Source: Planctomycetota bacterium
Lineage (GTDB): Bacteria; Planctomycetota; Planctomycetia; Pirellulales; Pirellulaceae
Length of the DNA stretch: 16,894 nucleotides
Reading direction: 5' to 3'
NCBI GenBank assembly: GCA_029259935.1
Contig: JAJDEH010000369.1
Location: forward strand, 1 to 16,894
Part shown: positions 27 through 14,840 of the stretch, piece by piece
Numbering within the stretch: position 1 is the stretch's first letter
How the letters are laid out: each line of letters starts with the position of its first letter
The notes under the pieces: model-generated
Seen by the model: only the letters and a program-made list of their open reading frames with translations
Database searches by the model: none
What the model was told of the DNA's origin: nothing
Program-made: the position numbers and the translations under genes

Positions 27-3000
27 TCAATCGCTTCGGCCTGGCTGCTCCTCCGTCGCGACGCCGCCTGCGCTTCTTTCGCTCGGCGGGCTGCCGCTTT
101 CAGCTTGAACTAGAGCGCAGCGGAAGCCAAGAAGGCTGATCCGGACGGCAGGCCCGAACGCATCGCGGCAAGCCGACCGCACGATCCGCGCGCTGACGCT
201 CCAGCCACCGCCGCGAACCGCCCGAGCCACGCCCTCGTCCGTCGAGCCAAGCGGATCGATTGCTGGCTCAGCCGTGTAGTCGCGCAAACCGTCTTGACAC
301 CATTCCCAGACGTTTCCGTGCATGTCGTAAAGTCCCCAGTTGTTTGGCGAAAACGTGCCCACGTCCACTGTTCCGTCACTTGAGTCGTAGCTGGCTTTGT
401 CAGGTGAAATCTCATCGCCGAGGGAATAGGCAGTTTCAGTTCCCGCTCGACAGGCGTATTCCCATTGCGCCTCGCTGGGAAGCGTCCAGTTCAGGCCCTT
501 GAACTTCTTACCAAGTTCTTGCAGGAAGTACAGGCAGTCAAGATAGCTGACACTGTCCACCGGCTGCCGGCCGCCAGCGAAATGGCTTGGGTTTTTGGAT
601 ACGACGGCAATCCATAATTCCTGGGTGACGGGCGTTTCAAACAACCAGAATCCCAGACTGAGGATGACTTCGTGAGCAGGCATTGCGTCGTGCAACCTAG
701 AATCCTCAGGGTCATCCGAGCCCATGATGAATCGACCAGGCGGAACCCAGCGCATACGCTGGGTGACAAGGCCCGACTCGACCTGGGCCTTGTTGGCAGG
801 CTCGATCGTGAAGTCTGCCCACAAGCCGTACTTGTCGCGGCCTATCGCCGAAGCCCAGCTTGGGTTGGTGAACCGCTCGACCACCAGTTCATCACGATTG
901 GTCAGTAAACGCACCGTCGGGGTCGTGGCGATCCGAATTCCGGGTTGTTCGGCGAGGCGCGCCGAAATTCGCGAGGCTCCGCCTCGAGTCTTCTCGCCGG
1001 GGCGTGGCTCCGCCTCACGCCCCTTGCTCCAAGCCTCGGGCTCCGCCGGCTGGCCTGCTTCTTGAACTAGAGCGCAGCGGAAGCCAAGATCGAGGCTCCG
1101 GTCGACAGGCACGAACGCATCGCGGACAGCCGACCGCACGATCCGCGCGTCGCTGAGCCAGCTACCGCCGCGAACCGCCCGATTCACGCCCTCGGTCGGG
1201 CCGAATGGATCTGTCATCGGCTGGCTGGTGTAGTCGCGCAAACCATCGTGGCACCACTCGTCCACATTGCCGTGCATCTCATACAGGCCCCAACGGTTAG
1301 GCGGCAAAGTACCAACCTCGACGGTTTCTTCGCGGTAAACTCCCGTTTTCCCCTGAGAGTAGGGATAGTTGCCATCGTAATTCACCTGCTCGGCCTTGAT
1401 GTTCTCGCCAAACGAAAAGGGAGTGGTCGTTCCCGCTCGACAGGCGTATTCCCATTGGGCCTCGGTGGGAAGCTGAAACTTAGCCTGCTCCACGAGGCTT
1501 GCTAGCCGCTGCATGAAATTCTGACAGTCGTCCCAGCTCACGTTTTCGACGGGACGCCGGTGGCCTGGAAATCGGCTGGGGTTGTCATCCATCACCGCCT
1601 GCCACAGATCTTGCGTGGCCGTGGTATCGAACAGCCAGAATCCGCGACTGAACGTCACTTCGTGTAGAGGTCCTTCGTCTTCATCTCGATCAACTTCGTC
1701 TGCCGGCGACCCCATCAGAAACGTGCCGGGTGGAACCCAGCGCAGGCGCTGCTTGATTTGCTCTTCGCGAGCTGGATCGACCCTTTCAGATGCACGAAAT
1801 TGGATTTCGGCCCAGGCCCCGAATTCGTCATGGCCCCAATCCGTCGCCCAAGGGGGCGTTATGCCTTGCCGCCAAAATCCGCCGTCATGGTCCTTTTTCT
1901 CTCCCCACTCGAAGGCAATTAGCCCATTGGAAGCGGAAAGCGTGGCACAAGGGCTGCCTTGCTCGGGATCGGTGTCAGCCGGACGTTGACGACATCCGAG
2001 AAACTCGCCCACTTGACGGAGCCAGACCGATTGCACGGTATCCCCGTCTGGTTCCTCGATGGGGTCGGCGTTGGGACGCCGGGCGGCGTCGATCTCGGGA
2101 TGTGTCAACTTCGACAGAGCTCGATAGATGGGACCAATTGTCTCGTCGTACCAGCCGGCGTTGGACTGCCGATCGACCGACCGGCTTAGAAAGGACAACG
2201 CCCCCGGATCGATGTGGCTTGGGTGTTCGGCGCGCTGCTTAAAATAACGAGCTTGCGCCAGAGCGTCGCGCCCATCGTCGGCGGGAACCAGGGCGCGCGA
2301 GTCACCGGACAGGCGGCGCAGTTCGTCCAGCCAAACGCTCTGTTCCAGTTGGCCATGCCAAACGCGAATCAGCGCCAGCACTTCTTTTCGCAGCCGGCTA
2401 TCGAGCCGCTCGAACTGGGGCAGCAATTCCTTGGCCGCGTCTTCGTCAAGCGTGGCTGCGGAAGGGTGCTGCGACCGCAGGGCGTCGTCCTGCCATACCA
2501 ACGACTCCAGGGCCGCACTGGACCATTGGGGACGCAGCCCACGGATCGCTCGCAACAGTCCCGGTTCCAGACGAACCGCCGGCGCGACGGCCCGCAGAAG
2601 CTCGGCCAGCCGCCTCTGCTGTTGCTGTGATGTCGTCTCGCCGCCAATCGCTTTCTGCCAGGGATGCACCGAAAAAACACGGCGTAACGGTTCGGCAACT
2701 TCCGCTTCACCGCAAGGAGTCAAGGCCACCAAGTGACTTCCGTTATCTCGAGCGAATCGTCCCCACGCGAGCCAGCGGCGCTCGAGCGCCGACCCACGTG
2801 TGTCTAGCGTTCCCAAATCCCCCAGCACCAGCACGACCGATCCAGGGTCCGGCGTGTGCAGCACCCTCGGGCCGCTCCACAGCATCAATCCATCCTCTGG
2901 ATCCGAAACAGTCGCGATCCGCAAGGCGTTTTCGGGAATCAGCCGCCGCAGGTGACGGCAAACCGAATGCTGGTCGTCGCGATAGGGTGTCAATCGCTCG

Positions 3001-3524
3001 CTATAATCGACGGCGATCACAACCGAATTGCCCCAGCGCCGCATGGCCTTTCGAGGAATTTGGCGAACGAGTTGGCGCTTGGCGACACGTTGCACCAGGC
3101 GTTTGACATCAACGCGTGCCCCACGGCCTTGCCGGGTCAGACCCGCCCGCAACCGGGGAACCAGCTCGCTCCACGTGGCCAACGGTTTCGCCACGGGCGC
3201 TTCCGACGGCCGATTATGCCATTGGTTATAGACCAAGTCTGGGTCCGGCGACTCGATCTCGCGGTGCCGACGTCCTGCCTCCGTTTCGCGGGAACGAAAT
3301 GTCAGCGGCCGCCAGAAAGGCGTTGGCGCTTGATCGGCTGGCCAATGGGAATCGCTGGGCACTTCTTCCCGAACCATCGGCAATGGCGGGGCCGGTCGCG
3401 GCAACTTGGTTTCGTGAGCGCGTTCCGTAATCTTCAGTTGGGCGGCCACGAACTGAATCGAATGGTCGTCGGCCAGGCCGATCACCCGCGCCAAATCGGC
3501 TCGGCTCACCTTCGAGCGGCTCAT
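27..3524 (-). CDS. vWA-like/SAV_2336-type protein with two FGE-like (C-type lectin fold) domains; predicted DGR variable protein
   Basis: This 1165-aa protein begins with a SAV_2336-like region. Residues 166-285 look like a vWA fold with a degenerate MIDAS, D173-Y-S175-E-R177, where DxSxS is usual. A helical segment follows (about 295-500). Two FGE-sulfatase/SUMF1-like domains occupy about 593-822 and 924-1141, each opening with an RW(V)PPG-F-MGS motif and ending in RGG(S/G)W to LGFRCAL. Both lack the two catalytic cysteines of true FGE (S791/V796 and V1110/V1115), so a ligand-binding rather than catalytic role is inferred. The domain ends are near-identical variable regions (residues 782-821 and 1101-1140) with the mutation pattern of a diversity-generating retroelement. 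The ATG overlaps the stop of the MoxR gene (ATGA, 3521-3524), indicating translational coupling. Inferred role: hypervariable sensor of a protease/MoxR/vWA conflict system. Family calls are from motifs, without a database search. Confidence 0.88.
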   Translation of the reverse strand: MSRSKVSRADLARVIGLADDHSIQFVAAQLKITERAHETKLPRPAPPLPMVREEVPSDSHWPADQAPTPFWRPLTFRSRETEAGRRHREIESPDPDLVYNQWHNRPSEAPVAKPLATWSELVPRLRAGLTRQGRGARVDVKRLVQRVAKRQLVRQIPRKAMRRWGNSVVIAVDYSERLTPYRDDQHSVCRHLRRLIPENALRIATVSDPEDGLMLWSGPRVLHTPDPGSVVLVLGDLGTLDTRGSALERRWLAWGRFARDNGSHLVALTPCGEAEVAEPLRRVFSVHPWQKAIGGETTSQQQQRRLAELLRAVAPAVRLEPGLLRAIRGLRPQWSSAALESLVWQDDALRSQHPSAATLDEDAAKELLPQFERLDSRLRKEVLALIRVWHGQLEQSVWLDELRRLSGDSRALVPADDGRDALAQARYFKQRAEHPSHIDPGALSFLSRSVDRQSNAGWYDETIGPIYRALSKLTHPEIDAARRPNADPIEEPDGDTVQSVWLRQVGEFLGCRQRPADTDPEQGSPCATLSASNGLIAFEWGEKKDHDGGFWRQGITPPWATDWGHDEFGAWAEIQFRASERVDPAREEQIKQRLRWVPPGTFLMGSPADEVDRDEDEGPLHEVTFSRGFWLFDTTATQDLWQAVMDDNPSRFPGHRRPVENVSWDDCQNFMQRLASLVEQAKFQLPTEAQWEYACRAGTTTPFSFGENIKAEQVNYDGNYPYSQGKTGVYREETVEVGTLPPNRWGLYEMHGNVDEWCHDGLRDYTSQPMTDPFGPTEGVNRAVRGGSWLSDARIVRSAVRDAFVPVDRSLDLGFRCALVQEAGQPAEPEAWSKGREAEPRPGEKTRGGASRISARLAEQPGIRIATTPTVRLLTNRDELVVERFTNPSWASAIGRDKYGLWADFTIEPANKAQVESGLVTQRMRWVPPGRFIMGSDDPEDSRLHDAMPAHEVILSLGFWLFETPVTQELWIAVVSKNPSHFAGGRQPVDSVSYLDCLYFLQELGKKFKGLNWTLPSEAQWEYACRAGTETAYSLGDEISPDKASYDSSDGTVDVGTFSPNNWGLYDMHGNVWEWCQDGLRDYTAEPAIDPLGSTDEGVARAVRGGGWSVSARIVRSACRDAFGPAVRISLLGFRCALVQAESGSPPSERSAGGVATEEQPGRSD
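104..224 (-). repeat. DGR variable region 2 (VR2), end of the second FGE-like domain
   Basis: This is the partner of 1061-1181 and encodes residues 1101-1140, about 25 codons before the stop. Variable residues are 1107, 1109-1111, 1119, 1124, 1126, 1127 and 1129-1131. The alignment is exact outside these codons, yet the ~30 codons just upstream in the two domains differ freely, including synonymous changes (for example TGC/TGT and GAT/GAC). Such a sharp border is expected from cDNA replacement from one template. The invariant end is 104-131. A weak 4-bp hairpin with a 4-nt loop (86-89 with 94-97) lies just beyond it on the coding strand. Confidence 0.85.
1061..1181 (-). repeat. DGR variable region 1 (VR1), end of the first FGE-like domain
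   Basis: This 121-nt segment encodes residues 782-821. It matches 104-224 at 104 of 121 positions. All 17 differences are at codon positions 1 or 2, in residues 788, 790-792, 800, 805, 807, 808 and 810-812, and none is synonymous. Most variable codons here are CTC, AGC, GAC, GTC or GAT, as expected if the template has AAC/AAT there. Its coding-strand 3' end is a 28-nt block (1061-1088) identical in both copies, the likely initiation-of-mutagenic-homing end. A GC-rich hairpin (999-1006 with 1016-1023, 9-nt loop) lies about 37 nt further downstream on the coding strand. Confidence 0.85.
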
Positions 3525-4489
3525 GGCTTGCCACCCGTATTTTTGTCCAAAACAAATCGCCCCACGCGGTCGAGCACTTCGCGTTGCCGTTTAATGTTCT
3601 TCGGCGCGATTTCGATCACCGCGCGGACCAGGTCGAGGTATTCGGCTTGGCCCGGCAATGGCGTGACTTGGCTATCGATCGCCTGGCGACGGTCACGGAT
3701 CAACAATTCGGCGGCCGCGCCGAGCAATTGCTGTTGCGCCTGCGGAAAGTGGGCCTTGGCCCGGCTGACCAGCAGGTCGGTCAGCTCCGCTTCGTCGGTC
3801 GGCAGCGAAAGGCTCAGCACGAGACAGCGGCGCAGGAAGGCGTCAGGTAGAACTCGTTCTTCGTTGGTCGTAATGACAACCAAGGCGACCGCCCCGGTCC
3901 CGGAAACCGGCTCGGAGAACCCTTCCGGTTGAAACTTCGCCGAGCCCAAGGCTTGCAGCAGGCCATTGGGCACGTCGCTTTCGGCCTTATCAATTTCGTC
4001 GATCAGCAACACGCAGCCATCTTCCGGGTTCCAGCCCTCGGGCCGCTCGTATTCGGGCAACTGAAGATGGGCCGCCTGCTGGGCCGCTTCCCGCCAATTC
4101 AACGCCCACCACACGGGACCGGGGCGAATGAACTTGCGCATCATCAGATCGTCGCGAATCGCGGCAAGGTCCTTGGTGACAGCGCCCAGAACCTGGGCCT
4201 CGGCCAGCCGCTGGACTGCGTCGAACTGCCACAACAGATCCCGGGACTCGGTTTGCGCGTCGACCACATGACAAATGAACGGCCGCTTCATCAGAACGGC
4301 GGTCGCTTGCGCCAACTGAGTCTTGCCCACGCCCGGTTCGCCGCGGACCAACAGCGGCCGCCGAGCGGCCAAAGCGGCATTCAAGGCCCAAATCGATTCG
4401 TCGTCAAACACATGAACTTGACCGGGTGCACTATCAGATTGCTCCAGCACCACCGGTTTCGTTGGCTTCTTTAGCGGGTGAAAAGTCAC
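3521..4489 (-). CDS. MoxR-type AAA+ ATPase of the ternary conflict system
   Basis: This 322-aa protein is a single AAA+ module of MoxR type. The Walker A motif GEPGVGKT is at residues 50-57, Walker B LLIDEID at 161-167 (D164, E165), a sensor-1-like Asn at N209 in VITTNEER, and arginine-finger candidates R220/R221 in DAFLRRC. The tail after about 225 looks like the helical lid. MoxR ATPases act as remodelling partners of vWA proteins, and here the next gene, overlapping by ATGA, encodes a vWA-like protein, so they very likely work as a pair. The start codon is GTG at 4489, with only a weak ribosome-binding site upstream; 55 bp separate it from the protease gene. Inferred role: the NTP-driven switch between the FGE-bearing sensor and the protease. 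Family assignment is secure; partner assignment is from context. Confidence 0.92.
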   Translation of the reverse strand: MTFHPLKKPTKPVVLEQSDSAPGQVHVFDDESIWALNAALAARRPLLVRGEPGVGKTQLAQATAVLMKRPFICHVVDAQTESRDLLWQFDAVQRLAEAQVLGAVTKDLAAIRDDLMMRKFIRPGPVWWALNWREAAQQAAHLQLPEYERPEGWNPEDGCVLLIDEIDKAESDVPNGLLQALGSAKFQPEGFSEPVSGTGAVALVVITTNEERVLPDAFLRRCLVLSLSLPTDEAELTDLLVSRAKAHFPQAQQQLLGAAAELLIRDRRQAIDSQVTPLPGQAEYLDLVRAVIEIAPKNIKRQREVLDRVGRFVLDKNTGGKP

Positions 4490-4544
4490 GTTTGATCCAG
4501 TTGTAGTTTAGAAAGTTTCAGTTGCGCAAGCTTCTTTTGAAGAT

Positions 4545-6026
4545 TCAAATCTGTGTCGCCGGCCGCGCTTGAAACATATCTTGCAGACGATAGAGCAAAG
4601 TGAATTCACGACCATCATCAGGTGGTTTGCGTTGCTTGACAAATACCAAACCTTGGTACTTCTGCTTCAGTCCTTTCACGATTTGCTCCCGGTGATTGTC
4701 GATCTTTGGTTCGGCCGACTCGGTAAAGACGTAGTAGAACCGTTGACGTTCGTCTTTGAGCTTGATCGTGATGGCTTCGTTGATTTTGCCTGATGCGCGA
4801 AAGGGAAAGGGAATCTTTAGCACTTCATAGAGCGCGTTCTCAAACTCTCTCTCAAAATTCTCGGTCGTCATTCCTTCTTCTGGTGGTTCACGAATCTGAC
4901 ATTCACCGCCGGGCAAATGATCGGGGCTGAAGGGAGCGGAGAATAACGCCTTGCGCCCGTCGACTCCCGCCATTAAGATCTCAACAATGGTGCAGGTAGT
5001 GGACGGTAGCAGTAGGAAGGCTTGAGGGCTGCCAATTCCCGCTCGGATGGCGCGCAGTTGATCTTCGTCGTACACAGCGGGAAACAGGTGGCTGCCGAAA
5101 GATATGATCGCGTTGATCGCATGACCGTCGGGGTCGGCGCCGGCACTGGCCAGGCTGTGATAACATTCGATCACGATATCCAAAACGTCGGCCAGCGAAC
5201 TGTCGAACAACGCGTCCGTCACTGCTTGAGGCTGCTCTTTGTCATTGGACTTGCGAGGCGTCGCGTTCTCCAAGCGAGTCTCGATGGCCGAGGCCAGTGC
5301 ATCGCTCGCGATTTTCGATTTTTTCAGTTCGACAACGGAGCCTTGCTTTAAGTGCTGGAGGGCTTGCTTGTGGTCCGTCTCGAGCGTGGATGTCTCGACG
5401 ATGAGATCCGGTTCGATTTTGGCAAGATCACTGACTGGAATGGCGAACGCGGTACTGTCCAGGCGGCCCGCGAACTCGGGAATATCATTGCGAACAACCG
5501 ATACCACCATGCCCACGACGCGCCCCGTGCCACGGTCGACCAACGGAGCCCCGCTGAAGCCGTGAGTAAGTTGCTTGGATTCCACTTGAATCAGTTGGCG
5601 GCCGGATGCCGTGTCCACGAGGCCCAGGTAATCTGCATTGGCAAACACACCGTCGATATCGTCGAGGCTTGGATAGCCAAAGGCGTCACACTTCGACGGT
5701 TTGTGATCACCGATTTCCCTAAGCCGGGCCACGAACACCTCGTCTCGCTTGAGCGTGCATCGCAAGAATGCAATATCCGCTTCCTCCGCCGGCTGCCACC
5801 TAGTGATCTCCGCGTCTGCTTTTTCGTCTTCCACGGCCAAGGCCGGCTTGACCTTCACGGACTTGCTTGTCGGCTTCGATGTGGCGATGTCGTCGATGAC
5901 GTGGGCACAGGTAACCACCAAGTCTTCGGCAACGACGAATCCCGTCCCGACTCGTTTACCGTCAACATAGACGGCAACGACACACTCTTTCAAACGCGCT
6001 TCGCGGTCGTGGGTTGCCCCCGTCAT
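4545..6026 (-). CDS. Trypsin-like serine protease with a VMAP-like C-terminal half
   Basis: The N-terminal domain of this 493-aa protein (about 10-200) is a trypsin-like peptidase with the full triad: H42 in TCAHV, D84 in EADIAFL, S158 in HGFSGAPL. There is no signal peptide or membrane segment, so it is probably cytoplasmic and active inside the cell. A linker of about 60 residues leads to a C-terminal region (about 270-493) that I do not recognise by motif; by position it matches the vWA-MoxR-associated protein (VMAP) slot of known ternary systems, where a trypsin domain is a common N-terminal effector. AAAAGG sits 6 nt before the ATG. It is 32 bp after the 327-aa gene and 55 bp before the MoxR gene on the same strand, so one transcript is likely. 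Inferred role: effector that cleaves targets, or itself, once the sensor fires. Confidence 0.88.
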   Translation of the reverse strand: MTGATHDREARLKECVVAVYVDGKRVGTGFVVAEDLVVTCAHVIDDIATSKPTSKSVKVKPALAVEDEKADAEITRWQPAEEADIAFLRCTLKRDEVFVARLREIGDHKPSKCDAFGYPSLDDIDGVFANADYLGLVDTASGRQLIQVESKQLTHGFSGAPLVDRGTGRVVGMVVSVVRNDIPEFAGRLDSTAFAIPVSDLAKIEPDLIVETSTLETDHKQALQHLKQGSVVELKKSKIASDALASAIETRLENATPRKSNDKEQPQAVTDALFDSSLADVLDIVIECYHSLASAGADPDGHAINAIISFGSHLFPAVYDEDQLRAIRAGIGSPQAFLLLPSTTCTIVEILMAGVDGRKALFSAPFSPDHLPGGECQIREPPEEGMTTENFEREFENALYEVLKIPFPFRASGKINEAITIKLKDERQRFYYVFTESAEPKIDNHREQIVKGLKQKYQGLVFVKQRKPPDDGREFTLLYRLQDMFQARPATQI

Positions 6027-6058
6027 GACATACCTTTTCTGCTCTAGGAAAACACCTG

Positions 6059-7042
6059 CTAATCCACGGTGAAATCAATCGAAGGGTCGAGCTTGCATTC
6101 CCGCAGTCCGACCCGGCATACGGCGTAGGTCACATCTCGCAATGGATCTTCGTAGGCGCCGGCCAACACCTTGGCCTCGGGAATGTCACGCGGCACCAGA
6201 CGGTCGTGTTGGGAATAGTAGACCATCGGTTCTTCATTAAAACGATCGAAATCGCGGCCCCTTGCAAACACGTTATATCCCCGCGCCAAGACTCCCACGC
6301 GGACTCGGTCGTTGCCGGCTTTCAATGCATCGCGGCTGTACTCGGAAAGGGCCAGTCGCAGTGGGCGGCTTTCAAATAACGGAGGCTCCTTTTTCAGTCT
6401 TTCGAGCAGTTGATCCACGGCGCGGATCGCCGGAAGCGAAATGGCGGGAAATCCCAACAGCGAAACAAGGGTTTCGCCTGTCTTGCCGCCTAAGAAACGA
6501 AAGATCTTCTGATACCACTGCGGCTCTTGGTGCTTCACGACTTCAAAGGAAAGCAACCCCAAGCCGCCCGGAATCTCGATGGGGCGTTTGCCGAACGCCG
6601 TGCGGGAGCTGAAACTCAAATCGCTCGGTTGAGCTCGATCGGAGGTGGCCGCGTCGTACAGTTTGAGTCCCGCGGCGATCGACCAAAACACGGTTTTAAA
6701 CACGGTATCCGTCGACTGTTCGTCCTTTCCGAAATTCAATCGCATGGTCGCCCGCATATCCTTGTCAATTTCTTCGCCTGCTCCGACGTGAAAAGACACC
6801 AATTCCAAGGCGGCTCGCACGTCGGGAGACTTTTCTGAACCGTCCAGGGATGGTTTGACTTTTGCGGGCTCGACCAACGTGGGGCCATCCATATCAGCCC
6901 CGAACTGAAAGACACAAAACTGATCTTCGAAGGCGGTCTTGGCCTCTTGCTGAACGCCAACCTTGATTAAGCTGGACTTCGTTGCCGGCAGCCTCAGTTG
7001 ATCGATCGATGCCGCCGCGTGTGCGGGTTCGAATTCAAACAT
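6059..7042 (-). CDS. Conserved-looking hypothetical protein, first gene of the conflict operon
   Basis: I do not recognise this 327-aa protein. It has no signal peptide, no classic nucleotide-binding motif and no convincing enzyme signature. A weakly hydrophobic stretch lies near 193-207 (LLGFPAISLPAIRAV region), too broken by prolines to call a membrane span. The middle (about 100-180) and the end (about 225-327, with several R/D-rich segments) look like ordinary soluble folds, probably beta-rich. A good GGGGAG ribosome-binding site lies about 8 nt before the ATG. It is 32 bp upstream of the protease gene, which suggests co-transcription and a role in the same system, such as a substrate, inhibitor, adaptor or second effector. 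That role is inference from position only. The 211 bp before it hold a possible pseudoknot. Confidence 0.75.
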   Translation of the reverse strand: MFEFEPAHAAASIDQLRLPATKSSLIKVGVQQEAKTAFEDQFCVFQFGADMDGPTLVEPAKVKPSLDGSEKSPDVRAALELVSFHVGAGEEIDKDMRATMRLNFGKDEQSTDTVFKTVFWSIAAGLKLYDAATSDRAQPSDLSFSSRTAFGKRPIEIPGGLGLLSFEVVKHQEPQWYQKIFRFLGGKTGETLVSLLGFPAISLPAIRAVDQLLERLKKEPPLFESRPLRLALSEYSRDALKAGNDRVRVGVLARGYNVFARGRDFDRFNEEPMVYYSQHDRLVPRDIPEAKVLAGAYEDPLRDVTYAVCRVGLRECKLDPSIDFTVD

Positions 7043-7196
7043 CCATATCTCCCCATTCGTGTAAGGATGAAAACCGGACTAACGGTTGCTCCGTGGAATC
7101 CGCCCAACTGCAAGAAGGTAGATCTGCGACCCGAACAGAGAGTATACCGAACTGGCAGTCGCTACGTGAAGAAGATGCCAGTGATTTTCTGGTGGA

Positions 7197-7239
7197 TCTC
7201 GGAATCAGACGGGGTGCATCCGAGAGGACACACCCCGTC
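7197..7239. other. Interlocking inverted repeats, possible H-type pseudoknot
   Basis: Two perfect inverted repeats interlock: TCTCGGA (7197-7203) with TCCGAGA (7219-7225), and GACGGGGTG (7208-7216) with CACCCCGTC (7231-7239). The order stem1-stem2-stem1'-stem2', with connecting loops of 4, 2 and 5 nt, fits an H-type pseudoknot or two mutually exclusive hairpins on either strand. It lies just after the Replic_Relax stop and before the 327-aa gene, so it could end one transcript, process it, or control read-through into the operon. On the minus strand no clear T-run follows, so a standard intrinsic terminator is unlikely. Confidence 0.5.
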
Positions 7240-7253
7240 CAAACTGGCCAAGA

Positions 7254-8498
7254 CTAGCGGCCAAAGAACCAACGTGAAGCAGGTTTCGACTCCGAAACCG
7301 TACCGGTGACGATCGCGATGGCCGAGTCCTCCCCTGCCGTAGCAGTTGGTTTGTCCTCGGCAGGTTGTGGCGTGGGAGTAAGAGCTGCCGCAATTGGTAG
7401 GACTGGCTGTTGCTCCCCTGCACCGAACAAAGGCCGCATGACTATGTCGGACAGGCTGTCACGCACAGTATCGCGGGAAAGTCCGTGGCCGTTATCACTA
7501 TCACTGGTCATGAGCCCTTTCCGGACATCTTCAACCTTCCTCCAAATGCTGGCGGACAATGGAGCTGCGTCGAACTGGTGCTGGCATAACTCGGCACAGG
7601 TCGTAAACCAGGCACGCTTCTGCACCTCAACAAAGCCAGACGCGGTGGCCAACAAATCGGCCACACGGTCGCTCTCCGACGGATTGGTGCGGTTGCCGGC
7701 GACCAACAAGAGACGGAATCCAGGACGCGGATTTGTTGCCCCGTGCCGGTGGTACAAATCCGTGAGAAACTCTTGTCCACTAGACGAAGTTGCCCATGCT
7801 TCATAGCGGGCAAACTTCGCCTCGATTTGCCGCATCGACATGTTTCCCATGTCGAGTTCCACGAACGAACAGATCATTCCTTGATCACGCACGCGGTGAA
7901 CGAACATGGCATCCGGTTCCAGTCGAGTCGCTTTGCCACTAACAGAACAGATCAGTCCATCGTTGGACGGCAGCGAGCGCCGCTCGATCTGCAACAGGTC
8001 GAGATTGTCTCGAGCCTGAATCGTCTGCCAGACAGCGACGCCGAACTCCGTGATTAGCAACTCGTGCAGCACATGTTCGCCGCTGTGACCCTCGGAGCGC
8101 GAGCGGTCGACGCGGATGAGTTGCCCCGGCTTGCTCTGCCGTTCCAACTCGGCCCGCAATCGACTGGCTCCCGTTTTCGTCACGAAATAGATCTTCGGCC
8201 ACAGCGGACTCGTGTTACGAGTCTCGACTAGGCCCAGGAAGCCCAGAGACTCCATCTCGGCGAGATGGCGGCGAGTGGTGCGATCGGTCTTGAGTATCGA
8301 CGCAAAGCGACGCTGAATCTGGCTGGCCACAGCGAGCCGGTTTCGATAGACGAAGCCCAAGATCGCTGGAAAGTGTGGCCGGTCCTTGGCGTTGGTAATC
8401 TTGACCGGCTTATGCGTATGCATCGGCTCCAGCAGTTTCGGCAACTCCCACGGGGTCAGTGGGCGTTTGGATCGATTCTTGGTTGTTGATGTTGACAT
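7254..8498 (-). CDS. Replication-relaxation (Replic_Relax) family protein
   Basis: The 414-aa protein has an N-terminal winged-helix-like region (about 45-115, ending WPKIYFVTKTGASRL). A PD-(D/E)xK-like core follows: EHVLHELLITEF (141-152), EPDAMF with D196, FVELDMG with E214 and D216, then K228 and Y232 in the K(F)ARY motif. This layout is typical of the Replic_Relax family, linked with relaxation of plasmid and integrative-element DNA. The C-terminal 90 residues are low-complexity and Pro/Thr/Ala-rich, without a recognised domain. An AGGAGA ribosome-binding site sits 8 nt before the ATG, supporting the start. It lies about 400 bp from the tRNA-fragment border, as expected for an element maintenance gene. 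Whether it keeps nuclease activity cannot be told from sequence alone. Confidence 0.82.
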   Translation of the reverse strand: MSTSTTKNRSKRPLTPWELPKLLEPMHTHKPVKITNAKDRPHFPAILGFVYRNRLAVASQIQRRFASILKTDRTTRRHLAEMESLGFLGLVETRNTSPLWPKIYFVTKTGASRLRAELERQSKPGQLIRVDRSRSEGHSGEHVLHELLITEFGVAVWQTIQARDNLDLLQIERRSLPSNDGLICSVSGKATRLEPDAMFVHRVRDQGMICSFVELDMGNMSMRQIEAKFARYEAWATSSSGQEFLTDLYHRHGATNPRPGFRLLLVAGNRTNPSESDRVADLLATASGFVEVQKRAWFTTCAELCQHQFDAAPLSASIWRKVEDVRKGLMTSDSDNGHGLSRDTVRDSLSDIVMRPLFGAGEQQPVLPIAAALTPTPQPAEDKPTATAGEDSAIAIVTGTVSESKPASRWFFGR

Positions 8499-8519
8499 TG
8501 AAGCGTTCTCCTAGAGCTA

Positions 8520-8557
8520 GGTGCCACTTTGTAAAAGTGGATATAAGTCGTGGCACC
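8520..8557. repeat. Compound inverted repeat upstream of the Replic_Relax gene
   Basis: GGTGCCAC (8520-8527) is repeated inverted as GTGGCACC (8550-8557). A competing perfect 7-bp hairpin shares its left arm: CCACTTT (8524-8530), loop GTA, AAAGTGG (8534-8540). The site lies 21 nt before the Replic_Relax start codon, overlapping the likely leader or promoter, so an operator for autoregulation or a leader structure is plausible. It could also be a dispersed palindromic repeat. Confidence 0.5.
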
Positions 8558-8604
8558 GGAATTTATGAAACAGCGGAAAAATAAGGATGAAATGAATGAG
8601 AAAA

Positions 8605-8625
8605 TGGCCACGCGGTGGCCACGCG
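8605..8625. repeat. Short direct repeat, TGGCCACGCG twice
   Basis: TGGCCACGCG occurs at 8605-8614 and 8616-8625, one base apart, each with a TGGCCA palindrome. It lies in the gene-free stretch between the Replic_Relax gene and the tRNA fragment (8558-8889), which otherwise holds no supportable ORF. Function unknown. Confidence 0.55.
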
Positions 8626-8783
8626 AAAAAGAGGCGGATCGCGGCATCGAGGTCGAATGAGGCTCGCCCCGTGATGCCGAGGCGGCGTGGCGTGAGATGC
8701 GATCGAAATCGCTGTGAGCCGAAAGAGAGAGATGCTAGAGTAACCGGAGGTGCGGACGCATGCCCGCCACGGCGGCGCACGCG

Positions 8784-8847
8784 GTTGCACCTTTCGTTGC
8801 ACCTTTCCTGTGCGTTTTGCACCATTTGGTGCGATGTGTGCGTTTTG
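8784..8847. repeat. TTGCACC repeat cluster beside the attachment site
   Basis: A 12-bp unit GTTGCACCTTTC is repeated in tandem (8784-8795 and 8796-8807). A third TTGCACC is at 8817-8823, with a near-inverted copy GGTGCGA at 8828-8834 and another GGTGCGG at 8749-8755. TGTGCGTTTTG also occurs twice (8810-8820, 8837-8847). The cluster ends about 40 bp from the tRNA fragment. This is the expected place for arm-type sites of a tyrosine recombinase or excisionase, or for iterons of an element-encoded replication protein. Confidence 0.55.
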
Positions 8848-8889
8848 GAAGTGGTTACTGGAGAAGAAGTTACGCGGAGACTGACAGGC

Positions 8890-8931
8890 CTTACAAGGCG
8901 GATGTCGTGGGTTCAAGTCCCCCATCGCCCA
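8890..8931 (+). pseudogene. 3' tRNA fragment (probably tRNA-Val, anticodon TAC): attachment-site remnant
   Basis: The fragment reads as an anticodon loop CTTACAA (8890-8896), anticodon-stem 3' arm GGCGG (8897-8901), variable loop (8902-8906), T arm GTGGG-TTCAAGT-CCCCC (8907-8923, with one U-C mismatch), acceptor 3' strand ATCGCCC (8924-8930) and discriminator A (8931), with no CCA encoded. Upstream bases do not supply the matching CCGCC arm, a D arm or the acceptor 5' strand GGGCGAT, so it is not a working tRNA. Identity that starts at the anticodon loop and runs to the 3' end is a common crossover region for tRNA-targeting integrases. The isotype is inferred from TAC and the acceptor sequence. 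Confidence 0.72.
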
Positions 8932-8941
8932 CTCACCATTG

Positions 8942-8985
8942 CCCCTTCGAAACAAGGTTTCATCTTTGTTTTCAAGGGGTTCTTT
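8942..8985 (+). terminator. Terminator-like hairpin just after the tRNA fragment
   Basis: CCCCTT (8942-8947) pairs with AAGGGG (8974-8979). After one mismatch, an inner stem of about 6 pairs continues, and the T-rich TTCTTT (8980-8985) follows. It begins 11 nt after the tRNA discriminator base, where the terminator of the original tRNA gene would sit, which supports the chromosome lying to the right. Confidence 0.5.
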
Positions 8986-9269
8986 GTTGCGCTCGTTGTC
9001 GGAGTCGACGCCCTCATCAACACGGCGGACCGTGCCCGATTGGTCCAATACGCTTGCCAGTGTGAGGGAAAGTTACAAGTGGCCCGCGGGCGGGTCAAGG
9101 TCAGCTCAAACCGGTCGGCCACGGCGATCTCGCGAATTCGGGATCGCGAGAAATCATGACGCTCGCGGATTAACCAAAGCGGGTCCTGGAAAAGCAGGAG
9201 GGTGACCGTAACCTCGGATAGAGTCCTACCTTGAGGTTCATGCCTGGATTCAGAGCCAAATTCGTTGAT
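8986..9269. other. Gene-free spacer between island border and kinase gene
   Basis: With the terminator-like hairpin before it, this makes about 340 bp without a supportable gene. It holds one perfect 8-bp hairpin, TCTCGCGA (9128-9135) with TCGCGAGA (9144-9151) and an 8-nt loop, about 120 bp beyond the kinase stop. It could end the kinase transcript, although no T-run follows on the minus strand. Nothing else was recognised. Confidence 0.4.
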
Positions 9270-11558
9270 TCAAACGGTTTTCGAAAGGCTGGTGAACGTA
9301 TCGGTGCGCATGCCAAAGCTATCGCTGGGCGCGACCGCTTTCAGCAGCGCTTCGATGTCGCGCTGAATGATCCGACATAAGGAAAAGGCGAACAGCGAAC
9401 CTAGGAAGCTCAGCACCGACAGCACGATCATGGCCGGCGTGTTCTGAGATTTGGTAACCAGACTGCTAATCAGTAGGACAAGAATTCCGATGACCGGAAT
9501 TCCACCCGCGCCATACAGGTACCATGATGAATAGGAACTCAATCGTTCCAAAGCATGTTCATCTTCGACGCCCGGATTCGCCTGGTGAAGTTGCATCGGA
9601 TAAAACACGCGTACACACAGAAACGTAACCAAGAAAAATGGATAAGTCGCGCCGACCAGTCCGCAAATCGCCAGCGAGGCGGAGAAATGAGCATACCAAC
9701 TGGCGTGCAGATCTCCCCTCAATAGGTTCAACGTCGTGGGGTAGGCAATGCCGGCGATCAGCCACACGACGATACCAATGACCGCGGCCCAGTGGCCCAG
9801 CGCCAACGTCCGTTGCCGCACCCACGCCGCATGTTCGCTGTCGTTGGCTTTTGGTTGGAGCACTTGCTTGGCAATCGGATTGATCATGTACAGGGCGATC
9901 GCGATCCCTAGCGGATAAAAGATGGAGTTGATGACCCCCACGATAATGTCAAACTGCCAGACCATCTCCTCCAAGTGTTCTCGAATTGCCTCCCGGTTGT
10001 AAATGTAATTGAAGGCACCGGCGAAAATATTGGGAAGCAACGCGGCAAGCAGCAAATAGAGCCGGGGGCGGCGGCGAATAATATCGCGCCATCCCTTTCG
10101 CGGTCGCAGCAGCCGTTGAGTTCGCGGTTGCAAAATGAGCGAGAATTCGCGAGCGAGACTTTCGCCCGTGGGATAGCGGTCGTCGCGATCGGGCGCGAGG
10201 CACTCCAACAACACACGCTGCAGTTCCCTGACGGTGGAATCATCGTGAGCTGGCTGCTGAATTTCGTCGAGGCCGTCCAATCGCCGCTGCGTCATTTGTT
10301 CCAGCGTCGCGATCCAGCCGGCGGATAGTTGCTCGTCTTGAAACGGCCGCTCGCCGTGTAGCAGTTCCCACAACATGACCGCCAGGGAATAGAGATCGCT
10401 ACGGCCGTCCAGTTCATCGGCTTGGCGAAGATGCCCCGGGTTGCAGGCCTCCAATTGTTCGGGCGACATATAAGCCAGGCTGCCCCCGAAGTACGCGGCC
10501 GGCGTGGCACCCTCGACGTTCGAACTGAAGCTGATGTTAAAATCCGCCAGCTTGGGCGCGCCATCGGCGGCGAGCAGTACGTTGGCCGGTTTGATGTCGC
10601 GATGCAAGACGCCCCGATTGTGGGCGTAGTCCAACGCCGAGGCCAGTTGGGCTCCCAGGCGGCAGATCACCTCGGGCCAGGGCATGCTCGACAGGCGGCG
10701 GCGTGTCGACGATTCCGATAAGACTTGCCCGCTGCGTTCCGCTTCTTCTTCGGCGGCCTCGGCCACGAGTCTCCCGCTTCGTTCCGACATCGGCAACCGG
10801 CTGGCCCGGTCGACAACCGACTGCAATGTCCCGCCCGCCACGTATTGCATGTAGAGCAACCGCAGTTTTCGATCAGGCAATTGCCGTTGGTCGTAAACTC
10901 GCACGATGTGCGGGTGGTCGAGTTGTGCCAGGGTCTGCGGTTCGCTGCCTTGATCGGCGGAAATCTTGAGGGCGACCAGGCGCTGCATCGACTCTTGCCG
11001 GGCCAGAAAGACGCTGGCGAAGGCACCCTTTCCCAGACGCAACAGCAGATTGAAATCGTCCAATTTTTCGCCGGGCTCGATGTCATCACCGGGACGAACG
11101 GTGGAAAACAACGCGGTGCTGACGTCGGGCGACTCCATCGGCAGCAGCCGCTCGAGTTCCTCGGTGTTGTCGGGAAAGCGGGCGAAGTACTCCGTCGGCT
11201 GGACGGCCTCGCCCGCCGTTCGCCGCACATGGTATTCTTCGTAAATCAGGTCGCAGGGAAACTTGCCATCCAGGCACAATTCCGGGTTCTCCTTGGCGTA
11301 ATCTTCCAAACGCAGCAGCGTGACCTCCTGCTGCGTGCGATACTCGAGATCGACCTTAATCAGCTCGATGAGCACCACGCGCCGCAACTCGTCCGCCGTC
11401 GTGGGGAGATGGTCGGAGATCGACGGGGGCGCGCCGGTAGCCTCCCAGGTCTCAATGAATCGCTCGAGATGCTGTGCCAGCACGTCCCAGGATTGTGTTG
11501 CTTCGTCGAGGGGAAGACCCATGAATTGCCAGCTTCTGATGAATGTTCGTGTCTCCAC
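9270..11558 (-). CDS. Membrane-anchored Hanks-type Ser/Thr protein kinase with six probable C-terminal membrane spans
   Basis: The 762-aa protein has an N-terminal helical region (1-160) of the type found before planctomycete kinase domains, then a kinase domain (about 168-475). It shows the glycine loop GKGAFASV (176-183), K198 in ALK, HRD at 319-321 with K323 and N326, and SPEQ (365-368). The DFG motif reads DFN (339-341). A charged insert lies at about 251-292. Six hydrophobic segments follow (about 497-520, 536-560, 590-610, 626-650, 680-702, 708-730), so the kinase domain should face the cytoplasm. It is divergent from an ECF sigma-factor gene 137 bp away; ECF/kinase pairs are a known planctomycete arrangement, so the kinase probably senses a membrane signal and controls that sigma factor. 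The start used is GTG at 11558; ATG at 11522 is a real alternative. Confidence 0.93.
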   Translation of the reverse strand: METRTFIRSWQFMGLPLDEATQSWDVLAQHLERFIETWEATGAPPSISDHLPTTADELRRVVLIELIKVDLEYRTQQEVTLLRLEDYAKENPELCLDGKFPCDLIYEEYHVRRTAGEAVQPTEYFARFPDNTEELERLLPMESPDVSTALFSTVRPGDDIEPGEKLDDFNLLLRLGKGAFASVFLARQESMQRLVALKISADQGSEPQTLAQLDHPHIVRVYDQRQLPDRKLRLLYMQYVAGGTLQSVVDRASRLPMSERSGRLVAEAAEEEAERSGQVLSESSTRRRLSSMPWPEVICRLGAQLASALDYAHNRGVLHRDIKPANVLLAADGAPKLADFNISFSSNVEGATPAAYFGGSLAYMSPEQLEACNPGHLRQADELDGRSDLYSLAVMLWELLHGERPFQDEQLSAGWIATLEQMTQRRLDGLDEIQQPAHDDSTVRELQRVLLECLAPDRDDRYPTGESLAREFSLILQPRTQRLLRPRKGWRDIIRRRPRLYLLLAALLPNIFAGAFNYIYNREAIREHLEEMVWQFDIIVGVINSIFYPLGIAIALYMINPIAKQVLQPKANDSEHAAWVRQRTLALGHWAAVIGIVVWLIAGIAYPTTLNLLRGDLHASWYAHFSASLAICGLVGATYPFFLVTFLCVRVFYPMQLHQANPGVEDEHALERLSSYSSWYLYGAGGIPVIGILVLLISSLVTKSQNTPAMIVLSVLSFLGSLFAFSLCRIIQRDIEALLKAVAPSDSFGMRTDTFTSLSKTV

Positions 11559-11695
11559 CCATTGTTATACGCGACAGGGGATTTTTGAACCGGGAGAAAT
11601 GAACTACGATAAGGTGTCGGCAATTGGCCGGTGGCCGACCTCGCCAGAGTAGTGGTCGGGTGGCGTAAAGAACTACGATTCGGTGCTAGGTTTCC
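11559..11695. promoter_or_regulatory. Divergent kinase/ECF sigma promoter region with 16-nt direct repeats
   Basis: GAACTACGATnnGGTG occurs twice in the same orientation, at 11601-11616 and 11670-11685, 69 bp apart, with only the two n positions differing. GAAC at the left of each unit resembles the AAC-type -35 element of ECF promoters, so autoregulation is possible, but the second copy lies only 10 bp before the ECF start codon, too close for a normal leader. TATAAC on the minus strand near 11565-11570 could be a -10 element for the kinase; if so, the downstream ATG at 11522 is the likelier kinase start. Confidence 0.5.
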
Positions 11696-12307
11696 ATGAG
11701 TACCTCCGCTAACGAAGATCTGATCGCACGTATCCGAGCCGGTGATGGCGATGCGCTGGCGGACTATATCAACCAGTTCCGTCCGCAACTGATGGCCTAC
11801 ATCGAACGGCAACTGGGCTCGGCGCTCCGGCGTAAAGTAGAAGCGGAAGATATTTTTCAAGAGGCTAGTGCTGATGCCGTCCGTTCGCTGGCGGATGTCG
11901 ACCTAGAGCAGCGGGAGCCGTTTTCGTGGCTGTGCCAAATCTGCGAGCGGCGAATTATTGACGCTCATCGCCATTATTTCGGCGCTCAAAAACGCGACGC
12001 TGGACGAGAAGTGCCCTTGGGTTCGCCTGGCGGAGATTCTCAGAATGCGGGGCTGATCAACATGTTGGTAAACAGCATGACGACGCCTAGCCAGGCTTTT
12101 TCACGTAACGCCCGCGAACTCAGGCTACTGGGCGCGTTGGAGCAATTGCCCGACGATCAGCAGGAAGCAATTCGCCTTCGATACATCGAGAACCTGCCCT
12201 CGAAACAAATTGCCGAAAAACTTGGCAAGTCGGATGCGGCGACACGCGTGATGCTGACTCGTTCGCTGAAAAAACTCGAGTCACTGCTCGGTTCCGAGTC
12301 GAGCTAG
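11696..12307 (+). CDS. ECF-family RNA polymerase sigma factor
   Basis: The 203-aa protein has region 2 at about 10-90, including the DIFQEA motif typical of sigma-70 region 2.1-2.2 and the PFSWLCQICERRIIDAHR segment (2.3-2.4). A linker of about 40 residues follows, then region 4 at about 140-200 with LPDDQQEAIRLRY and the helix-turn-helix LPSKQIAEKLGKSDAATRVML. Region 3 is absent, as in ECF factors. There is no anti-sigma gene nearby; the divergent membrane kinase probably takes that role, as in planctomycete kinase-linked ECF groups. Its own promoter region carries a repeated GAACTACGAT element. The ATG is supported by a modest AGG spaced 5-6 nt before it. Confidence 0.93.
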   Translation: MSTSANEDLIARIRAGDGDALADYINQFRPQLMAYIERQLGSALRRKVEAEDIFQEASADAVRSLADVDLEQREPFSWLCQICERRIIDAHRHYFGAQKRDAGREVPLGSPGGDSQNAGLINMLVNSMTTPSQAFSRNARELRLLGALEQLPDDQQEAIRLRYIENLPSKQIAEKLGKSDAATRVMLTRSLKKLESLLGSESS

Positions 12308-13400
12308 ATTGAAGCACTCAAGCCAGATGTGCACGCGAAGACGTCCTTGAAATTCGCGGCTTTCGTTTCCGAGTGTTTTCCGCAAGTTCGCTGCGGAAAT
12401 CTGCAATGCTGGAAGCAGCTTGCCGAGCGCGCAAAAAAAAGGCCCCCGGAATCGGTCGAGTCCCAGGGGGGCGAAGGACTCTAACAATGTTCCGGGAGCG
12501 ATTGGACGGTTTATGAATTGAGCATCCTGCCCAACTCACCGTACGGGATTCGCCAAGTTACCGCGCGAGTTTACAAAGCGGTCGTCAGCATCCATGCCGA
12601 CGATTACGCTTCGCGGTCCGCAGAGACATCCTCATTTCTGGGGACGCTCCAGATGCAGACTCATCCACGTGGCAGCTTCGCTCTCGACGCGTGAGCCGCC
12701 GGTTGGCGAACTCGTATGACGTCGATGAGGCGGGAGGATATGGAATTGCGAGCCGAGGGTCAATAGTGTTTTTCAACGAGATTCAATTGCCTCGCGTTGC
12801 CAGCAACTTCTCAGAAAATACGCTGAATCGCCGCGTGAGGAACTGTTTGCAAGGTTAGACCCCGTTGTTGGCCTTTGGGTTGCTCCGAGGAATACACTGG
12901 GCCCTGGACCATGTTTGCCGCAGTCTTCGACAAGTTTCGAGTCCTAGATTTCAGGGCGAATCGAAAAAAACACTGGCAGTGCGGTTGAACACACGAAAGT
13001 CGAGAATTTTAGGTGTTTTCTGCAAAATCGCAGGGTCGCCGTTGGAATTCCGGCCGTTTGCATAGTATGTAAATATAGACGAATAGCGATTCGATTCTGG
13101 CATCGCGAGTAAGGGGCCAGCCGCTTCTCGCAACGTCGGGGAAGAATCTTCCGGCAGCGTCTCAAGGGGGCCAACGAACTGACCGATCGGCGGTCGAGTT
13201 TCACGGGATCCCTAACTCATCACGTATTAGGGCGTTGGGGTCCGTATCCGTTGGAGATGCGAGCTAGTCGCAATGCGATGCTGGGTTGCGTGGAGTGCGT
13301 TGCCAAAGCGAAAGAGTGAAGCCCGGGCCAAGGCCCCATATGTCGCGGGCACGGATTGCATCGGTATCTATTGGACGACACCTCGGGAGCAAACGAAATC
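12308..13400. other. About 1.1 kb without a convincing gene
   Basis: Short ORFs here have no recognisable domain, no good ribosome-binding site and overlap one another on both strands. The stretch holds a minus-strand terminator-like hairpin (12433-12472) and two small hairpins near its right end: GACCG/CGGTC (13181-13185 with 13191-13195) and CCCTAA/TTAGGG (13210-13215 with 13227-13232). An AT-rich patch lies near 13060-13090. It may contain small RNAs or decayed genes. Confidence 0.45.
12433..12472 (-). terminator. Intrinsic terminator-like hairpin on the minus strand
   Basis: Read on the minus strand, a GC stem (GCCCCC with GGGGGC, continued by GGGA/UUCC) with a short loop is followed at once by eight T residues (12440-12433). 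This is a strong rho-independent terminator by appearance. It points away from the ECF gene, and no clear minus-strand gene lies upstream of it, so it may end a small RNA made from about 12500-13200. Termination of the plus-strand ECF transcript is less likely, because no T-run follows on that strand. Confidence 0.55.
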
Positions 13401-13721
13401 ATGCCCAAACGTAAAGGTTTTTCTCGAATTCAACTCACCGTGGCCGTGGCCGTCATGGTCGTTGCCCTGTTTGGCGCGACGATGACTTGCGTCGTGCTGT
13501 TTGGCGGCAAGTCAGCCAAGGAGATTGATCAGGAAAACATTACGGCGCTCAACCGAAAAGTAACCGAATACTACATGGAAACCGGCGAATGGCCGGACAA
13601 ATGGCTGGTTCGGTTGCACTCCGGCGGATACACCGAAAGGCTTCGGCACCCAACACCCTTCGGCGGTTACTATTCGTTTAACGCCAAACAAAAATCCGTC
13701 GTCAATACGTTTGTTGATTAG
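13401..13721 (+). CDS. Small pseudopilin-like protein with a non-standard prepilin motif
   Basis: With the ATG at 13401 the protein is 106 aa. KGFSRIQLTVAVAVMVVALF (residues 5-24) looks like a class III prepilin signal: G6 before F7, a hydrophobic helix to about residue 34, but Gln at mature position 5 (Q11) where Glu is usual. The rest resembles the short C-terminal domain of type II secretion GspG-like pseudopilins, with a Y-x-E-T-G-x-W-P segment and a G-Y...P-x-P-F-G-x-Y-Y-S-F ending. It has no pilus genes around it. GGGAG about 11 nt upstream supports this start over an upstream TTG at 13356. It could be an orphan minor pseudopilin, or a single-pass membrane protein that only looks like one. 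Confidence 0.65.
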   Translation: MPKRKGFSRIQLTVAVAVMVVALFGATMTCVVLFGGKSAKEIDQENITALNRKVTEYYMETGEWPDKWLVRLHSGGYTERLRHPTPFGGYYSFNAKQKSVVNTFVD

Positions 13722-13739
13722 CACGAGCCAAACTTCCCA

Positions 13740-14840
13740 TTAGCATTGTCGTGTCGGCGCGAGTTTGTCCCAATCCAACTCCACGCCATGCCCGATTGCG
13801 TCCGGCGCGACGGCATGGCCATCGACCACCTGCAGCGGGCGCTTCATGCACTCGTCCAGGCCGAATCCGTGATGCTCGAGGTACGACGCGTTAGAGACCG
13901 CGGCCAGCAGATGGACGTGCAGATCGTGGACGCCATGCGATGTAACCGGCAGGCCGTTTCGCTGGGCGAGTTCCGCGACGCGTAGCCAGGCCGTGATACC
14001 ACCGATGTTGGTGACATCGGGTTCGGGATAAGCGACGCCGCCGGCCGCGATGAGCATTTCGAATTCGCGCTCGGTGTGAAGGTTTTCGCCAGCCGCAATG
14101 GCCAAGCCGCTTTCACGCGCGATGTGGGCGTGGCCGGGGAAGTCGTCGGGAGCGATTGGTTCTTCTAGCCAATAGACGTCGTACTCCTTCAGCGCGCGGG
14201 CCGCGTCGACGGCTTGCTCGACCGACCAGGCCATGTTCGCATCGACCATGAGCGGAATGTCGTGCCCCAAATGCTCGCGCATGGCGGCGACTCGGCTGAG
14301 GTCTTCTTTTAGGTCCGCGCGTCCGACCTTCATCTTGATGGCTCGAAATCCCTGATTCATGAACGTCGCGGCTTGGGCGAGCAGTTCTTCGACGGAAAAC
14401 TGAAGGTCAATTCCGCCCGCATAAACCGGAACCTGGTTTTCCTTACCGCCCAGCAGCCGCCACAGCGGTAGGCCCTCGCGGCGCGACTTGAGATCCCACA
14501 GCGCGATATCGACGGCCGCGATTGCAAAAGAGGCAATTCCGCCTCGGCCCACGTAATGAAGATTGCGCCACATCTGTTGCCAGATCTGGTCGATGTTTGC
14601 CGAATCGACGCCGACGAGAAGTGGCGTCAGATCCGCGCTAATGACTTCCCGCACGGCGAGCCCGCCGTGACCGACCGTGTAGGTGTATCCCAGCCCTTCC
14701 GTGCCGTCCGTATCTCGTAGCTGTACGGTAATAAGTTGGAAATGCGAAATGCGGCCGTGCGTCGAATCGGAAAGCGTACGGGGCAACGGAATGCGATAGC
14801 AGGCCGCATCGACCGACGCGATTTTCGGGGAGCTGTTCAT
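13740..14840 (-). CDS. Enolase-superfamily protein, mandelate racemase / acid-sugar dehydratase type
   Basis: Using ATG at 14840 (MNSSPKI) the protein has 366 residues, the normal family length. The barrel shows the KxK base motif (K169, K171), metal ligands D200, E226 and E252 with N202, the D275 region PEPDVTNIGG, and H302 in SHG, which would act as the second acid/base. The N-terminal capping domain is at about 1-125. This set fits the mandelate racemase subgroup, which includes galactarate, talarate and other sugar-acid dehydratases; the substrate cannot be named. A longer reading frame back to TTG at 14954 adds 38 residues without family likeness and would cover the operator. It is divergent from a GntR/FCD regulator, which probably controls it in response to a sugar acid. 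Confidence 0.9.
   Translation of the reverse strand: MNSSPKIASVDAACYRIPLPRTLSDSTHGRISHFQLITVQLRDTDGTEGLGYTYTVGHGGLAVREVISADLTPLLVGVDSANIDQIWQQMWRNLHYVGRGGIASFAIAAVDIALWDLKSRREGLPLWRLLGGKENQVPVYAGGIDLQFSVEELLAQAATFMNQGFRAIKMKVGRADLKEDLSRVAAMREHLGHDIPLMVDANMAWSVEQAVDAARALKEYDVYWLEEPIAPDDFPGHAHIARESGLAIAAGENLHTEREFEMLIAAGGVAYPEPDVTNIGGITAWLRVAELAQRNGLPVTSHGVHDLHVHLLAAVSNASYLEHHGFGLDECMKRPLQVVDGHAVAPDAIGHGVELDWDKLAPTRQC

Follow-up and report, generated by a model that had tools for sequence, protein, structure and literature searches.

The contig analysed here (GenBank JAJDEH010000369.1 of the Pirellulaceae assembly GCA_029259935.1; 16,894 bases, referred to below as the window) raises the question of how one gene can hold two segments without a single silent difference between them that nevertheless encode different amino acids. 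The gene ends 26 bases from the left end of the contig and encodes a predicted sensor, here called the target. We conclude that the segments are very probably variable regions (VRs) of one diversity-generating retroelement (DGR). One template repeat is predicted to be the source of their rewriting, through an error-prone reverse transcriptase whose gene would sit past the left contig end. The features concerned are:

27..3524, minus strand, target (predicted sensor) gene, 1165 amino acids; no Pfam domain in the N-terminal part, which is followed by two FGE-sulfatase domains of C-type-lectin fold
104..233, minus strand, VR2, probable variable region of the C-terminal FGE domain, the second of the two; 130 nucleotides, the same as 1061-1190 save for 19 sites
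1061..1190, minus strand, VR1, probable variable region in the first FGE domain; partner of VR2

Over these limits the 19 differences fall in 12 codons, eight at codon position 1, eleven at position 2 and none at position 3. A sequence-only reading of this DNA had compared 104-224 with 1061-1181, both inside one minus-strand gene and each in one of its two tandem domains, and had counted 17 differences, all at codon position 1 or 2. The placement and the 17 sites proved right (7, 10 and 0 differences by codon position in the 39-codon pair), and only the edge needed correction, to one codon further out, where codon 225-227 (AAT/GCT) behaves alike. Among codons that specify the same amino acid in both domains, 56 of 110 have different spellings outside the segments, against 0 of 31 within them (Fisher p = 1.1e-8); the inside set of this test comprises 44 codons, including one edge codon past the segment that adds one difference at position 2 and one at position 3. 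In the rest of the aligned FGE domains (204 codons) the differences by position are 58, 53 and 123. This silent-codon contrast is stronger evidence than the chance probability of (2/3)^17 offered earlier. Since silent differences are absent, the segments must have been copied recently from one source, although they encode different residues. A recent gene conversion event between the FGE domains, with selection then diversifying the binding residues and no retroelement involved, would be expected to homogenise the segments equally well. However, it requires 19 selected changes in 12 codons, with zero silent ones, after the conversion, and we regard it as very improbable.

The base composition of the segments points to the template. 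Among bases common to both domains, A accounts for 6 of 110 inside the segments and 83 of 379 outside them (p 3.4e-5), whereas C, G and T show no inside/outside difference. Gene conversion does not predict A as the sole depleted base. Five template repeats, from DGRs of three relatives, have A at 14, 12, 14, 13 and 15 of the 19 sites (hypergeometric p 5.8e-6 to 9.2e-9, for templates that are related to each other); the remainder of their 114-nucleotide span is 9 to 12% A.

The genomes of five relatives (G001, G134, G225, G364 and G004) were also queried with the two real segments and with a version carrying A at the 19 sites. With the latter query, the template repeat was the best match in G001, G134 and G225, and in G134 and G225 it was the sole match (E up to 0.001). 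The real segments matched best, in G001, the VRs of a twin-FGE locus (C126), the first segment reaching the template in third place; they had no match in G134 or G225. None of the three queries matched in G364, and in G004 all three matched only that genome's own FGE gene. The DGR transcriptases seen in the searched relatives are those of G001, G134 and G225; in G364 and G004, no transcriptase had an SQ motif at the expected position among the 12 of 20 listed loci examined, which included all from these two genomes. The motif, xGxxxSQ, is what we take to mark a DGR-type reverse transcriptase. That A at the 19 sites recreates the templates of relatives is likewise not predicted by gene conversion.

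When 396 genomes from the order of G001 were searched with a profile built on the N-terminal part, the target family was found in 6 of them, at 8 loci. In two of the eight (L047 and L048), a DGR cassette directly follows the target, and the order is MoxR, multi-FGE target, HRDC gene, SQ-motif reverse transcriptase and template repeat. Locus L048, in G134, is laid out as follows:

7734-8810, MoxR
8814-12278, target, 1155 amino acids, two FGE domains, VRs near 11256 and 12108
between target and reverse transcriptase, HRDC gene
12765-13784, reverse transcriptase, motif GLPIGALVSQ
near 13841, template repeat
near 14759, third VR, in a short FGE target

Like the window, L048 has a MoxR gene and a target of the same sequence family with two FGE domains and two VRs; unlike in the window, the rest of the cassette (HRDC gene, transcriptase and template) is seen as well, together with a short target that has a third VR. 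Across 39 codons, every mismatch between its template and its three VRs lies on a template A, except one C/G in the last codon, and the VRs differ from each other by 7, 8, 0; 8, 7, 0; and 4, 7, 0 at the three codon positions. L047 has three VRs in two open frames, an HRDC gene, a transcriptase with GLPIGALTSQ and a template, and its VR-VR differences over 39 codons are 8, 6, 0; 8, 4, 2; and 7, 5, 2. No transcriptase was present in the fetched stretch of the other six family loci, one of which (L049) had no match to the VR search expression.

Genome G001, a Pirellulaceae metagenome-assembled genome, has four SQ-motif transcriptases (L029-L032). A template-VR pair adjoins every one of them, and at three of these loci two VRs were found; scanning for A-biased repeat pairs recovered template-VR pairs at all four. 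Besides these cassettes, the genome holds two more twin-FGE targets (C126 and C450) without a linked cassette, and C450 ends about 500 nucleotides past its last VR, resembling the window contig's end just beyond its own VR. A family member also lies on plasmid p4 of Azospirillum brasilense Sp7, beside several insertion-sequence genes (L034); the match of its annotated gene starts only at residue 321 of the window protein. The assignment of the segments to DGR variable regions is therefore supported by the absence of silent change, the depletion of A alone, the relatives' templates with A at 12-15 of the 19 sites and the cassettes at two of the eight family loci.

Several observations weigh against this assignment. 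No reverse transcriptase was found in the window, the scan for A-biased repeat pairs returned no template-VR pair there, and a repeat search (minimum 30 nucleotides) and a pattern search (up to 3 mismatches) of the window found only the two copies, so no template was found in it. Low A among shared bases is also seen in two other family loci (L001 and L046), so A depletion alone is weak evidence, and ten VRs from four of the relatives' five DGRs keep A at 5 to 9 of the 19 sites. The L047 template differs from its VRs at 1 to 3 third positions too, so that this match is imperfect. Loci L043, L044 and L045 have 0 third-position differences (one comparable pair each) with neither transcriptase nor template in the fetched stretch; the pattern alone is thus no proof of present activity. 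The closest relative, L001, has the same trypsin-MoxR-twin-FGE order, and its pair differs at 11 third positions; apart from its own three copies, its genome gave no match above 77% among the 40 candidates scored out of 44. The sensor and protease roles discussed below are, moreover, predicted ones.

Alternatively, the segments might be former DGR targets that no longer change, the retroelement having been lost or broken. L043 and L044 show the pattern in G364, whose one RVT_1 match is without the SQ form in the usual place; L001 and L046 (the latter with 7 third-position differences) resemble decayed pairs, and degraded DGR loci are reported in sections of PMC10907252. However, the pair in the window has accumulated zero silent changes, so any loss of the retroelement would have been recent, and the relatives' assemblies may be incomplete; we therefore consider this history unlikely. 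Somewhat less doubtful, though still improbable, is writing of the segments in trans, with the template and transcriptase at another place in the genome, in which case the left flank would be without a cassette. The same sections of PMC10907252 report trans action for Thiohalocapsa DGR 4 and 5. In G001, the C450 pair (L045) and a third copy on C24 (L089) together make up a single lineage of VRs spread over two contigs; among the matches in that genome with E of 1e-4 or lower, of which 40 of 53 candidates were scored, no template for this lineage was found. Against this stand L047 and L048, where the cassette comes directly after the target. We retain the reading in which one DGR, with its cassette predicted beyond the left contig end, writes both segments.

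The fold of the target agrees with the location of the segments. PF03781 matches the protein in two stretches (E 6.6e-81), and the top Foldseek match in the PDB is 2Y3C, Treponema denticola variable protein 1, which is also the top PDB sequence match. The PF03781 match and the alignment of the VR to the variable end of this protein (TvpA, 2Y3C) uphold the earlier placement of the segments at the C-terminal end of a C-type-lectin/FGE fold; sites at the variable end of the fold would equally be expected from gene conversion with selection. The VR of TvpA occupies the position in the FGE-type lectin fold that it has in the window protein; TvpA differs in the one FGE domain of its solved chain and in being described as an outer membrane lipoprotein (PMC10907252). 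For the N-terminal part, which has no named domain, there is moderate evidence of a divergent vWA fold:

2475..3191, minus strand, N-terminal segment of the target (amino acids 112-350), predicted divergent vWA-like fold

The target belongs to a gene cluster at 27-8498, all on the minus strand, whose other members are:

3521..4489, minus strand, MoxR-type AAA+ ATPase, 322 amino acids; AAA_5 1.2e-12, bpMoxR 5.4e-4 (below its cut-off)
4545..6026, minus strand, trypsin-like peptidase, 493 amino acids; Trypsin_2 3.3e-17, motifs TCAH and GFSGA
6059..7042, minus strand, 327-amino-acid protein, no family match
7254..8498, minus strand, Replic_Relax protein, by family match

The ATPase gene overlaps the target start by 4 nucleotides, and its product has the Walker A motif GEPGVGKT and the Walker B motif VLLIDE. 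The MoxR-type ATPase component of a MoxR-vWA-VMAP ternary conflict system is thus present (AAA_5 above cut-off), whereas no VMAP model matched the third protein, the protease, up to E 5. The protease has homologs that align across 89-96% of its length (P0046, P0047 and P0050). Its homolog in the Pirellulaceae relative is 52% identical across 96%, and a Pirellulaceae metagenome-assembled genome is the source of the closest listed relatives of both target and protease (52% each). Its C-terminal half (about amino acids 200-493) has no Pfam domain above cut-off. PF20028 is carried by two weak homologs of its trypsin domain (P0057 and P0061), and further trypsin-domain homologs are fused to nSTAND1 or VMAP domains. 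The genes for the 327-amino-acid and Replic_Relax proteins perhaps mark a mobile segment. Beyond the cluster, a Ser/Thr kinase gene (minus strand) is divergent from an extracytoplasmic function (ECF) sigma factor gene (plus strand) at 9270-12307, and the right end of the window encodes planctomycete cytochrome C and DUF1549 domains (PSCyt1, PSCyt2). These domains and the Pirellulaceae source of the closest listed relatives both point to a planctomycete host.

Judging from the relatives, the cassette would run in the order target, HRDC accessory gene, reverse transcriptase and template, and the template would carry A at the 19 sites. Copying of this single template repeat would put random bases at A, and either FGE domain could receive the copy, so that each of the two lectin faces of one protein would change independently of the other. 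On the strength of the literature and the neighbourhood, the target may act inside the cell as a sensor, with ligands binding to its two FGE/lectin faces. The N-terminal part of the target, probably vWA-like, may work with the adjoining MoxR ATPase, and ligand binding may activate the trypsin-like protease, as in the model for DGR-diversified ternary conflict systems. In that model, as given in PMC10907252, a DGR target senses an invader and signals via MoxR to a peptidase effector. A predicted sensor next to a MoxR ATPase and a protease with TCAH and GFSG fits this scheme, whose sensor role is, in the abstract of that paper, still a proposal to be tested.

Much of this arrangement has precedents. 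The earlier remark that two variable regions in one protein are unusual was too strong, because open reading frames with several VRs and tandem C-type lectin (CLec) targets are already published: 31 of 271 multi-VR DGRs have several VRs in one open reading frame (PMC6642488, in part), and conflict-system targets with three tandem CLec domains have been described (PMC10907252). The sections of PMC10907252 drawn on here also contain tandem VR-bearing CLec domains, MoxR and trypsin-like neighbours, unnamed N-terminal extensions and action in trans, and list planctomycetes among the hosts of this DGR lineage. DGRs have been associated with MoxR-vWA systems (PMC7159879, in part), and in T. denticola DGRs, HRDC accessory genes overlap the transcriptase (PMC4891356, in part). 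The locus in the window is a further example of these DGR-diversified conflict targets. Like it, the DGR 4 and DGR 5 targets of Thiohalocapsa PB-PSB1 have tandem VR-bearing CLec domains in one target of a MoxR-type conflict locus; they differ in having three domains and a recognised vWA and in coming from a gammaproteobacterium, whereas the window protein has two domains, is planctomycete and is not accompanied by a detected VMAP. The DGR 9 target of the same strain shares the unnamed N-terminal extension, and section 13 of PMC10907252 does not state tandem VRs for it. A tandem-VR target of another species, Marichromatium purpuratum 984, lies in a locus that PMC10907252 calls part of a VMAP system; P0014, from M. 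purpuratum, belongs to the same family as the window target (36% identical across 98% of it) and is likely this published protein. A full-text literature search, judged by titles, found no further paper on the target family beyond those cited.

With this locus, the cellular DGRs thought to diversify immune sensors gain a planctomycete example in which a single protein has two variable faces, and L047 and L048 provide relatives in which template, transcriptase and tandem targets occur all together. It is possible, though doubtful, that throughout the family the N-terminal half is a divergent vWA domain whose metal site (D-x-S-x-R/H) is broken. MoxR, a bivalent, doubly hypermutated vWA-lectin sensor and a protease would then form a minimal adaptive immune switch in planctomycetes and proteobacteria, its two faces diversified independently and able to bind two antigens at once. 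If the vWA reading is true, targets now listed with an unknown N-terminal extension would enter the MoxR-vWA scheme.
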